Of a stretch of 64,000 nt of DNA, positions 28,604 to 32,465 are shown in pieces (positions within the stretch are counted from its first letter, which is position 1; the number at the start of each line of letters is the position of its first letter). Location of the stretch: assembly GCA_036227345.1 (NCBI GenBank), contig CP109468.1, positions 2,852,001 to 2,916,000 on the forward strand. The letters run 5' to 3'. The DNA comes from Streptomyces sp. NBC_01463 (GTDB taxonomy: Bacteria > Actinomycetota > Actinomycetes > Streptomycetales > Streptomycetaceae). A program made the translations under genes and the position numbers. The notes beneath the pieces are model-generated. The model did not search any database, had not been told where the DNA came from, and saw nothing but the letters and a program-made list of their open reading frames with translations.

Positions 28604-28675
28604 GCCCCCGTAGCTCAGGGGATAGAGCATCGGCCTCCGGAGCCGGGTGCGCAGGTTCGAATCCTGCCGGGGGCA
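28604..28675 (+). tRNA. tRNA-Arg (anticodon CCG)
   Basis: The cloverleaf was folded by hand: acceptor GCCCCCG/CGGGGGC, D-arm GCTC/GAGC, anticodon stem TCGGC/GCCGG with loop CTCCGGA (anticodon CCG at 28637-28639), T-arm GCAGG/CCTGC with TTCGAAT. Discriminator A. The CCA end is not encoded. It decodes CGG. The accessory nuclease/relic cluster lies on its 3' side, a common insertion position for islands. Confidence 0.96.
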
Positions 28676-28695
28676 CTTCGCAGGAAGTGCCTGAC

Positions 28696-28827: not shown

Positions 28828-30279
28828 TCAGATCCGACCGCACAGTCCGCGGTGGTAGCGGAGGTGTTCCGGCTTGATCTCATGGTCGGCCTGCCTCTTG
28901 AGCTGGTAGGCGAAGTCACCGGTCGAGTTCCGTCTCACCGCCCAGTCCTCGTCGATGTAGATGGCGAGCCTGTCGAATTCGACGTGGTGGTTGGGGCAGA
29001 GGCACAACAAGTTGGACAGCTCGTCGGGACCGTTATGGGGCCCACCGATGCCTCTGATGTGCGCAGCCTCGCTGTAGTGGCTATACCTCGTCTCCACGCG
29101 AGCCCCGCACACCTGGCATTCGTGCCCGTACATCACCTTGATGTCTTCGACGAGCTGCTGATCCCGGTCGGGTCGTGACGAGGTGACCGAACGGCGGGGC
29201 ACTGGGTCATTACCGCCCCCGCTGTCGGGGAGCTTCCCACTGGCCGTCGCATACCCGGCAAGGCCCACCCGTTCCAGGAGTTCCTCGCGGTCGACGTCGC
29301 CGAGATACGTGGAACAGAGTAGGCCGATGGCGTCGGCACGGGCCAGTGAGCGGCGAAGCACCTTTGCCGCGTCGCTGTTGAATCCAGCGGCCGCGCGCAC
29401 CGCTGTCAGCTGGGACGGCGTGGCGTCCGGGCCCTCGATCCCCTCGACGTCCCACAGGCCGCTGCTGCGCAGGCGGCAGAAGGGGTACTCGGGCGTGACG
29501 TTTGAATCCGGGAGACCGAAGTCCTTCAGCAGGGGTCCGACCTCATCCCTGAAGGTCTCCCACCCCACCATGCGGTCCCGTTCCGCAGCCAGACGGCCGA
29601 TGGCCCACAGGAGGGTGATGGGTTTGTGACGCGAGGGGCGGTGCCCCCTCATGTGGGTCCTCAAGCCGGAGAGCGCCCGGAAAACGTCATCCCTTCCCAG
29701 CTTCGCCCCTTGACGCGGAAAGGCGATGCCAGGCCTCGGGAAGCCGCCTCCTGAGGGGGCCGAGGCGTCGACCATGCCCAGGAATCGTCGCCGTCCTTCA
29801 GCACCCACCAGCGTCAGCGAGCGCAACGGCACGGGCACGTCAAGCCCTCTGAGAATGGGTTCCGCCGGCACATCGAGCTCCACGATGTCGCCCAGAGCCA
29901 TGATGTGTTCCCAAGTCTTCTCCTTGTCGTCCACACCCCAGACGGCCTTGGCGAGCGGCTGGTTGTGGAAGAGTCCGAGGATCCTCGCTTTGGCGACGAA
30001 TTTCTTGGCTGCGTAGAAGAGCACCTCGTCGCCGGCCCGGCGTCCCTCCAGCGCGGTCACTTTCTCGGACTTTTCACGCACGGGGGGCGTCGATCCCCAG
30101 AGCCGTGCCACACCCGTCGGGAAGAGATTCCGCAACGCTTGGGCATCCGCGCCGAGAACGTGCTCGTACTGTGCGAGGCGGACGCCCTCGCGCACGGAGT
30201 GCCTGAAGTGCTGCGGCCCCCGGACGCGCGCCGTGCCCCTCGGCTGGAGCACCCACTGAACCCCTGCCGGAGCCTCCAT
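28828..30279 (-). CDS. Putative type IV restriction endonuclease: PUA/EVE-like, sulfur-binding and HNH domains
   Basis: 483 residues from the ATG at 30279; ATGs at 30339/30345 would add 20-22 residues but read through a G5/C5 hairpin. Residues ~40-170 look like a PUA/EVE-type modified-base reader (GDEVLFYAAKKFVAKARILG). Residues ~195-300 match the ScoMcrA-type sulfur-binding domain (SRHKPITLLWAIGR, then EYPFCRLRSSGLWDV with the Tyr-Pro of the sulfur pocket at 265-266). Residues 388-436 are an HNH nuclease (CQVC, EAAHIRG, LCLCPNHHVEFD). Such proteins cut phosphorothioated or methylated DNA. No SRA signature is seen. G+C appears lower than in flanking genes. It is divergent from a NERD-kinase relic and may be acquired. 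Confidence 0.8.
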   Translation of the reverse strand: MEAPAGVQWVLQPRGTARVRGPQHFRHSVREGVRLAQYEHVLGADAQALRNLFPTGVARLWGSTPPVREKSEKVTALEGRRAGDEVLFYAAKKFVAKARILGLFHNQPLAKAVWGVDDKEKTWEHIMALGDIVELDVPAEPILRGLDVPVPLRSLTLVGAEGRRRFLGMVDASAPSGGGFPRPGIAFPRQGAKLGRDDVFRALSGLRTHMRGHRPSRHKPITLLWAIGRLAAERDRMVGWETFRDEVGPLLKDFGLPDSNVTPEYPFCRLRSSGLWDVEGIEGPDATPSQLTAVRAAAGFNSDAAKVLRRSLARADAIGLLCSTYLGDVDREELLERVGLAGYATASGKLPDSGGGNDPVPRRSVTSSRPDRDQQLVEDIKVMYGHECQVCGARVETRYSHYSEAAHIRGIGGPHNGPDELSNLLCLCPNHHVEFDRLAIYIDEDWAVRRNSTGDFAYQLKRQADHEIKPEHLRYHRGLCGRI

Positions 30280-30345
30280 GACGCGCCCGCCCTCTGCCTC
30301 TTCAGCCCCCGTGTAGGGGGTCTGCCCCCCGCTCTCCATCTTCAT

Positions 30346-30569
30346 GATTGACAGGTTAACTAAAGCCACTGACAAGACGTCTACAGCCGCATGCGTGCCA
30401 GGACTTCCGCACCGGCGGCGGCACCCGACCTTCGGCGTTCGGAGGACACGCGTCACCATCGCAGCCGCTATGTCCACGCAGACTGGCACGCTGGTGCCAG
30501 CCGTTATGTTGACTGCACAGAGACTGGCCAAATCGGGCACATGGGAATGAAGCACGGCGGGGACGTCGC
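30346..30569. promoter_or_regulatory. Divergent control region between the nuclease gene and the PglW-like relic
   Basis: It is less G+C-rich than its surroundings. A perfect inverted repeat CTGGCAC-gctg-GTGCCAG (30483-30500) is followed by TTGACT (30509-30514), which could be the -35 of the plus-strand gene. On the other side, TAGTTA close to 30345 is a -10 candidate for the nuclease gene. The assignment of both promoters is inference. Confidence 0.5.
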
Positions 30570-30737
30570 ATGAAGGAAGGCCGCTGGGAAACGGTCACGG
30601 ATTCCGAGTTCCCGCATGAGCGTCGTGGCCTCGAAGCCATCCGCTCGGAGCTTCCGGACAACGATCCGTGGCGTGCCTGGTCGAACTTCACATTCACCGC
30701 GAACTCCGGTCACGTCCGCGGAATGCGCCCGTCCTGA
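30570..30737 (+). pseudogene. Truncated PglW-type NERD-kinase N-terminus (defence gene relic)
   Basis: A 55-codon frame begins MKEGRWETVTDSEFPHERRG and continues LEAIRSELPDNDPWRAWSNF then TFTANSGHVR, after which it ends GMRPS-stop. The first ~50 residues match, from memory, the start of PglW/MAD6-type kinases, which carry an N-terminal NERD domain and normally continue VREVDLLVV. Here the match stops abruptly at 30719 and nothing beyond resembles the rest of the >1000-residue protein, so a deletion has fused the 5' end to the flank of glyA. GGGGA lies 6 nt before the ATG. Divergent to the restriction-like gene. Confidence 0.7.
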
Positions 30738-30784
30738 CGGCCCCTTGGGGGCGCAAGTCCAGGCCGTGCGGACGGTCTTCACCA

Positions 30785-32128
30785 TCAGGCGACCGGCAGC
30801 CCCGGTGCCGGATAGCCGTCCATCAGGTCCTTCACCTCGGCGCGGACCGCGGTCACCACGGCTTCGTCGCCGGTGCGGGCCGCCCCGACCACGCGGTCGA
30901 TCCACCCCGCGACCGCGGCCATCTCCGATGCGGGGATGCCCCGTGACGTCAGGGCGGGGGTCCCGATCCGGATGCCCGAGGGGTCGAACGGCTTGCGGGG
31001 GTCGTACGGAACGGTGTTGTAGTTCACGACGATGCCGGCCCGGTCCAGCGCCTTGGCCGCCGTCTTGCCGGGGACGTCCTTGCCGGTGAGGTCGATGAGC
31101 AGCAGGTGGTTGTCGGTGCCGCCGGAGACGAGGTCGAAGCCGCGGGCCGCCAGCTCCTCGCCCAGGGTGCGGGCGTTGGTCACCACGTCGTGTGCGTAGC
31201 CGCGGAACTCCGGTGTGGCGGCTTCGTTCAGCGCCACGCCGATGGCCGCGGTGGTCTGGTTGTGCGGGCCGCCCTGGAGGCCGGGGAAGACGGCGCGGTC
31301 GAGGGCGCGGGCGTGTTCGGCCCGGCTGAGCAGCATCGCGCCGCGCGGGCCGCGGAGTGTCTTGTGGGTGGTGGTGGAGACGACGTCCACGTGCGGGGCG
31401 GGCGAGGGGTGGGCGCCGCCGGCGATCAGGCCCGCGATGTGGGCGATGTCCGCGACGAGGACCGCGCCCACCTCGCGGGCGATCTCGGCGAACCCCGCGA
31501 AGTCGATCTCGCGGGGGACGGCCGTGCCGCCGCAGAAGATCAGCTTGGGCCGCTCGGCGAGGGCCAGGTCCCGCACCTCGTCCAGGTCGACGCGTCCGGT
31601 GTCGCGCCGCACCCCGTACTGGACCCCGTTGAACCAGGTCCCGGTGGCGGAGACACCCCACCCGTGGGTGAGGTGGCCGCCCATGGGGAGCGACATGCCC
31701 AGCACGGTGTCGCCGGGCTTGAGGAAGGCCAGGTAGACGGCGAGGTTGGCCGGGGAGCCCGAGTAGGGCTGCACATTGGCGTGCTCCATGCCGAAGAGCG
31801 CCTTGGCCCGTTCGACGGTGAGCGTCTCGACCTGGTCGATGATCTGCTGGCCCTCGTAGTACCGCTTGCCCGGGTAGCCCTCGGAGTACTTGTTCTGGAG
31901 GACGGTGCCGGATGCCTGGAGCACGGCGGCGGAGACGTAGTTCTCGCTGGGGATCAGGCGGAGGGTGTCGGCCTGGAGCTGCTCCTCGGCGGCCACCAGC
32001 GCGGCGAGTTCCGGATCGGCGGCCGCCAGCGCGGGGTGGCGGGGGCGCGAGGACGCGGGGGACGCGGGGGACGCGGGGGACGCGGAGGGTGAAGGTACGG
32101 AAGAAGGCGAAGGTACGGATGTGGTCAC
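30785..32128 (-). CDS. glyA: Serine hydroxymethyltransferase (riboswitch-controlled copy)
   Basis: 447 residues from the GTG at 32128, which has GGGAGG 6 nt upstream. An Ala/Ser/Pro-rich N-terminal tail of ~30 residues precedes the enzyme. SHMT motifs are RLIPSENYVS, NKYSEGYPGKRYY, the Asp/His pair in VADIAHIAGLIAGG, the PLP lysine in TTTHKTLRGPRG, and IRIGTPALTSRG. After the paired tyrosines it reads EGQQIID instead of the usual GGCEYVD. It makes glycine and methylene-THF from serine. A ZTP riboswitch in its leader ties it to 10-formyl-THF shortage. Confidence 0.93.
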   Translation of the reverse strand: MTTSVPSPSSVPSPSASPASPASPASSRPRHPALAAADPELAALVAAEEQLQADTLRLIPSENYVSAAVLQASGTVLQNKYSEGYPGKRYYEGQQIIDQVETLTVERAKALFGMEHANVQPYSGSPANLAVYLAFLKPGDTVLGMSLPMGGHLTHGWGVSATGTWFNGVQYGVRRDTGRVDLDEVRDLALAERPKLIFCGGTAVPREIDFAGFAEIAREVGAVLVADIAHIAGLIAGGAHPSPAPHVDVVSTTTHKTLRGPRGAMLLSRAEHARALDRAVFPGLQGGPHNQTTAAIGVALNEAATPEFRGYAHDVVTNARTLGEELAARGFDLVSGGTDNHLLLIDLTGKDVPGKTAAKALDRAGIVVNYNTVPYDPRKPFDPSGIRIGTPALTSRGIPASEMAAVAGWIDRVVGAARTGDEAVVTAVRAEVKDLMDGYPAPGLPVA

Positions 32129-32300
32129 GGGGATCCTCCCGGGTCGGTCGCATTGCTGCGGCGTGGACCCGGATGCCCAGGCGGACGGCTCTCCGGCGAT
32201 GATGCCCCCGGGCAGGCCCGGGGTGTGCCGCTCCCTCGTGGTCGATTCCACTGAGCACCCCCTGCGGGGGACGCGCGCCAGTCGCGGCAGTCCGCAGCCT
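32129..32300 (-). promoter_or_regulatory. ZTP (pfl) riboswitch and expression platform of glyA
   Basis: Read on the minus strand, the leader holds the pfl-RNA landmarks in order: TGCCGC-G-ACTGGCG (about 32290-32276), a GTGG/CCAC hairpin, CCACGAGGGAGCGGCA whose GCGGCA pairs with TGCCGC as P1, a G+C-rich linker hairpin, and CCGCCTGGGCA (32184-32174). ZTP riboswitches bind the AICAR derivative that builds up when 10-formyl-THF is low. Downstream, CCGGGTC (32166-32172) can pair with GACCCGG (32139-32145), which touches the GGAGG ribosome-binding site, so translational control is likely. Confidence 0.87.
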
Positions 32301-32465
32301 ACCGGGCGGCGGTGCCCAGCGGCCGTAGACATCCCTCTCCGACAGGCAAAGTGGCTGGGGCGTCAACATCCGTCCTGATTGATCCCCCTTCACGGGCGAG
32401 TGGGCGGGGTGGGATACGGGCAGATTCACCGGGACAGAAATGTGGCTCGACGGTTGGGGGACCGT

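Follow-up and report, generated by a model that had tools for sequence, protein, structure and literature searches.

The stretch of DNA analysed here, called the window, covers 64,000 nucleotides of Streptomyces sp. NBC_01463 (contig CP109468.1, positions 2,852,001 to 2,916,000). Between a tRNA-Arg (CCG) and a glyA-type gene, two features were found: a gene for a 505-residue nuclease on the minus strand (28828..30345) and, divergent from it across an intergenic region at 30346..30569, a plus-strand frame of 55 codons (30570..30737). The nuclease is composed of a YTH/EVE-like domain predicted to read a modified base (residues 27-194, 29764..30267), a sulfur-binding domain (SBD; residues 212-366, 29248..29712), and an HNH nuclease domain (residues 393-505, 28831..29169), all encoded on the minus strand. 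The plus-strand frame is a truncated pglW, codons 1-50 being followed by five unrelated codons and a stop; pglW belongs to the type 2 bacteriophage exclusion system (BREX2), also known as phage growth limitation (Pgl). The nuclease family is a recurrent accessory of Streptomyces BREX2 islands, usually divergent from pglW.

Comparison of structures gave the N-terminal domain the YTH/EVE fold of the PUA superfamily, in agreement with an earlier note on this DNA, made from the sequence alone, that had described it as PUA/EVE-like. In the structure ranking, the N-terminal domain of Thermococcus gammatolerans McrB (TgMcrB) and the YTH readers of N6-methyladenine (m6A or 6mA) stood above VcaM4I, though YTHDF2 was only 1 Z unit ahead of it. 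The tryptophans of a candidate cage (W83, W136, and W145) are invariant in 152/152 relatives. They align with W432, W486, and W491 of YTHDF2 in 6/9 settings, yet all three columns also held Trp in 9/100 shuffles of YTHDF2. The earlier note had also proposed two readers and no SRA domain. The two readers were recovered as the YTH/EVE and SBD matches; an SRA assignment for the N-terminal domain was set aside, as no SRA is among the structure-match rows shown, which is not proof of its absence.

The proposed ScoMcrA-like SBD was matched in fold and in pocket residues, with H116, R/K117, Y164, and P165 corresponding to H240, K241, Y287, and P288 of the window nuclease and A168 to R291. The HNH domain, likewise recognised in the earlier note, has catalytic residues C410, H429, and N445 that are invariant in 186/186 sequences, and H454 is present in all 185 aligned. 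Other domain combinations were also seen among the loci (L) and genomes (G) surveyed. In L100, for example, the same reader domain precedes a Pfam EVE domain and a region that weakly matches a restriction-endonuclease fold, and this locus adjoins BREX2 genes; L094, L097, and L099 look like it by eye. An AspBHI_N reader precedes SBD-HNH in L020 (619-2379, G281), and L021 (G193) appears alike by eye; at these two loci SBD-HNH is retained behind a different reader.

The first 50 residues of the 55-codon frame are residues 1-50 of PglW, as had been suspected, and 48/50 are identical to the PglW of Streptomyces sp. TSRI0281. Both PADLOC and NCBIfam give PglW, and a MAD6 identity was set aside on that ground. 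The same tRNA-Arg/glyA interval holds an intact BREX2 island of ~31 kb in TSRI0281, in the order tRNA-Arg, nuclease, a 1013-residue helicase-PLD protein, PglW, PglX, a stretch without a called gene, a PIN protein, PglY/BrxC, PglZ, a CBS-domain protein, a GmrSD_N protein, BrxD, and glyA. Some island genes, including those of TSRI0281 and of the pglW upstream regions, were called from codon usage by a program that misses or truncates genes. The TSRI0281 nuclease is 74.6% identical to that of the window. Similarly, nuclease and pglW matches lie ~250 bp apart in S. atratus, ~5 kb from the same tRNA. The 1013-residue protein (L138, 12403-15444) has AAA_11/AAA_12 helicase, PLD, and DUF5710 domains, and proteins resembling it (57% identity) are found upstream of pglW in L145 and L148.

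By blastn, the match to TSRI0281 pglW stops at 30718 and the match to the glyA region of that genome begins at 30785, which, with the junction sequences, places the deletion junction at 30719..30784. The window has no equivalent of TSRI0281 positions 493961-519600, ~25.6 kb that run from pglW codon 51 to the glyA edge. In the source genome (G000; 9.07 Mb, 2 contigs), the full-length PglW, PglX, and PglZ that characterise BREX2 were not found: PglW gave no match above the cut-off, and TSRI0281 proteins used as PglX and PglZ queries gave none, the same two queries matching loci of other species. An Eco57I-type methyltransferase and a DndC match were also missing from this genome. A weaker N6_Mtase relative (E ~1e-27) lies at C1:5352021-5352674, near a kinase-like match at 5354385, and matches of similar strength occur in many of the Streptomyces genomes scanned. 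Our best reading of these sequence comparisons, made against one intact relative, is that deletion of a BREX2 island orphaned the nuclease, much as the earlier note had supposed for a defence island at this tRNA-Arg. Synonymous divergence (dS) from TSRI0281 was highest in the nuclease (0.94), lower in glyA (0.48), and lowest in the stub (0.18, over only 50 codons). Because these values differ, the pglW end may have arrived by recombination after the species split, to be lost later still.

Searching one genome per species yielded 183 relatives, mostly from Streptomyces where named, of which the best 80 were kept, representing 78 distinct loci. At 28 of these (L053-L080) the match extends into the N-terminal domain, but L072 has lost that domain. 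BREX2 genes were present in the flank (up to 10 kb) at 17/28 loci, or 17/27 without L072, and PglW was present at 16 of the 17, divergent from the nuclease at 14 and co-directional at two. BREX2 genes flanked 0/16 SBD-HNH loci without the reader domain, 1/4 loci with the reader in another fusion, and 2/30 HNH-only matches. In Micromonospora wenchangensis (L077), pglX and nuclease matches share a strand, with 50 bp between the end of the first and the start of the second, and in Rhodococcus (L076) the nuclease is co-directional with pglW. L074 and L078 have interrupted nuclease frames beside a near full-length pglW. A full-length nuclease was found in 10/295 Streptomyces genomes, and PglW in 7/10 of these vs 57/285 of the others (p 0.0012; the species are not independent, and all p-values given here are guides only). 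PglW adjoins the nuclease in five of the ten, and a sixth (G139) has other BREX2 genes on the nuclease contig. The 295 genomes and the 78 loci share species (for example G212/L056, G206/L061, G056/L072, and G231/L073), so the two sets of counts are not independent. Copies with SBD-HNH only (G056, G281, G193, and G132) had PglW beside them in 0/4 cases and elsewhere in the genome in two. The name S. coelicolor was not among the nuclease matches listed (120 of 219 and 120 of 655).

Taken together, we favour, with a probability of about 0.52, a type IV nuclease that probably reads 6mA, accompanies BREX2 as an accessory, and is orphaned here as a stand-alone barrier to DNA marked with m6A and perhaps phosphorothioate. 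The YTH-like EVE domain would most likely flip out and read N6-methyladenine in DNA, the SBD would add backbone contact or specificity for phosphorothioate or sequence, and cutting of the marked DNA would fall to the HNH domain. In BREX2-positive strains, such a nuclease could clear foreign m6A DNA that BREX tolerates, or serve as the restriction arm of Pgl. In the source genome, where PglX is gone, a nuclease that still works after the loss would be left with stand-alone type IV restriction only. The distribution of m6A methyltransferases is consistent with a nuclease that penalises stray m6A. Strong N6_Mtase genes (E ≤ 1e-50) were found in 2/10 nuclease genomes vs 151/285 without the nuclease (p 0.053), and away from the nuclease-pglW interval in 0/10 (p 6.5e-4, the exclusion having been made after the fact).

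Several observations weigh against this reading. Comparing the profiles of the N-terminal domain and YTHDF2 revealed no significant similarity, and profile searches of PDB sequences with this domain gave chance matches or none; sequence-level homology to YTH was thus not obtained. The shuffles of YTHDF2 make the cage alignment weak by itself. Of the 16 control loci that have SBD-HNH without the reader domain, 14 are from other genera, and the dependence among species noted above applies to all the association counts. In addition, both nuclease genomes with a strong N6 methyltransferase carry it, as an HsdM-like protein, between the nuclease and pglW (G212, L040 10950-11894; G228, C1:7654596-7655528). 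These would be either regulated writers like PglX or writers of a motif that the reader leaves uncut. Strong N6_Mtase genes were found in 21/57 genomes with PglW only, 130/228 without PglW, and 2/7 with both PglW and the nuclease; PglW-only genomes are also low, and PglW rather than the nuclease may explain part of the depletion.

The strongest competitor, which we hold possible though less probable than the reading above, is that the nuclease acts on its own as a type IV enzyme and only happens to share defence islands with BREX2, the pairing having no functional meaning; the enzyme could still read 6mA. Eleven of the 28 loci have no BREX2 gene in the available flank, which is shorter than 10 kb at some contig ends, and in four other Streptomyces genomes (G232, G206, G231, and G056, the last with a copy without the reader) the family member found at this tRNA site has no adjoining PglW. 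A nuclease slot upstream of every pglW had to be rejected, as 20/20 other pglW upstream regions sampled (4 kb) lacked any YTH, SBD, or HNH match, and the very different dS values of nuclease and stub point the same way. Mere sharing fits poorly, however, with a divergent arrangement repeated at 14 loci, with the co-directional pairs of Micromonospora and Rhodococcus, and with the lack of BREX2 at all 16 loci without the reader domain.

Two further alternatives concern the target. The enzyme could depend chiefly on phosphorothioate, in the manner of ScoMcrA and SprMcrA, with the N-terminal domain only a helper in DNA binding or dimerisation. The SBD fold and pocket would suit this, but a pocket of the H/Y-K/R/Q-Y/H/F-P type is kept in only 80/152 relatives, against 152/152 for the Trp cage. 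Moreover, the A168 position is R in the window and H in 121/152 relatives, and the nuclease scores 102.6 bits with NF045808, under the curated NCBIfam cut-off of 180 bits; we consider this explanation unlikely. DndC was found in 14/295 Streptomyces and 0/10 nuclease genomes, too few for meaning. Slightly less probable again is an N-terminal domain that reads 5-methylcytosine (5mC) or 5-hydroxymethylcytosine like the EVE domain of VcaM4I, which would make cytosine-modified phage DNA the target. VcaM4I lies close behind YTHDF2 in the structure ranking, but TgMcrB and the YTH m6A readers come before it, and the three cage tryptophans are conserved in YTH order.

A more far-reaching proposal, which we regard as improbable, is that this enzyme supplies the restriction arm missing from Pgl immunity and that the window has lost the writer and kept the cutter. 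PglX would put N6-methyladenine on phage DNA in a first infection, leaving the DNA of the host unmarked, and the YTH-SBD-HNH enzyme, encoded divergently from pglW, would recognise and cut the phage so marked when it enters another cell, a mark-then-cut immunity with a logic opposite to restriction-modification. The available excerpts of PMC4365076 leave room for this, because PglX is described there as a DNA methyltransferase that is toxic, an antibody detected no methylation of the host, and the candidates named for the Pgl restriction step include methyl-specific nucleases of the host. As a caution, the same excerpts report that methylated DNA was undetected in progeny phage and infected cells too. 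A predicted m6A-reading nuclease beside pglW in many Streptomyces would be a concrete candidate in strains carrying the gene, and, provided that the prediction is correct, relatives carrying the nuclease and Pgl together could throw light on how Pgl stops phages. Similarly, two readers on one nuclease, one for a base mark and one for a backbone mark, could serve in the mapping of DNA modifications.

SBD-HNH enzymes, YTH-like 6mA readers of McrB, EVE-HNH enzymes, and HNH auxiliaries of BREX are already known. ScoMcrA and SprMcrA share the SBD and HNH domains with the window nuclease, which differs by the YTH/EVE-like domain before its SBD and by falling below the NCBIfam cut-off for the phosphorothioate family. 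ScoMcrA proper is SBD-SRA-HNH in the text available from PMC7461809, a screen of SRA/SBD-HNH enzymes in which EVE, ASCH, PUA, BREX, and pgl are absent as whole words. TgMcrB has a YTH-like, 6mA-targeting N-terminal domain, but identity is only 17% and the window reader is fused to SBD-HNH. VcaM4I and other EVE-HNH nucleases also join a PUA-superfamily reader to HNH (PMC7897488, in part), whereas the window reader is nearer to TgMcrB than to a 5mC-reading EVE and is accompanied by an SBD. All five BREX2 proteins (PglW, PglX, PglY, PglZ, and BrxD) are encoded in the TSRI0281 island, while only 50 pglW codons are kept in the window, and the nuclease is not a core gene. Finally, BrxU/GmrSD and other HNH auxiliaries are modification-dependent nucleases beside BREX; the forms named in the portions of PMC12839542 available are ParB-HNH and wHTH/SAD(SRA)-HNH, and YTH is absent from its main text. 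PMC11037411, in the part available, points to fusions of YTH and HNH as subjects for later work. The three-domain enzyme beside pglW is undescribed in the available extracts of the literature on YTH-HNH/N6-methyladenine, SBD with BREX, PglW with type IV restriction, and Pgl/BREX with 6mA and nucleases.

The left edge of the island is the tRNA-Arg (CCG) at 28604..28676 on the plus strand (ARAGORN), which is common, with its flank, to TSRI0281, S. atratus, and other Streptomyces. The right flank is the glyA-type gene (longest open reading frame 30785..32332, minus strand), with its TSRI0281 orthologue at C35:519607-521076. The flanking genes are presumably glyA, lysA, and hom. Within the intergenic region, alignment resumes at 30561 to TSRI0281 and at 30550 to S. 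atratus. Islands recur at the tRNA-Arg(CCG)/lysA/hom position in Streptomyces. A member of the nuclease family lies near it in seven genomes including the window, four of them without adjoining BREX2 genes; the other loci are L039, L053, L055, L061 (same genome as L045), L072 (as L046), and L073 (as L047). In S. atratus (L141), an imperfect second copy of the tRNA-Arg 3′ end, with 6 mismatches in 36, was located at 161546-161581, ~0.9 kb from the tRNA, the kind of trace that integration events can leave.
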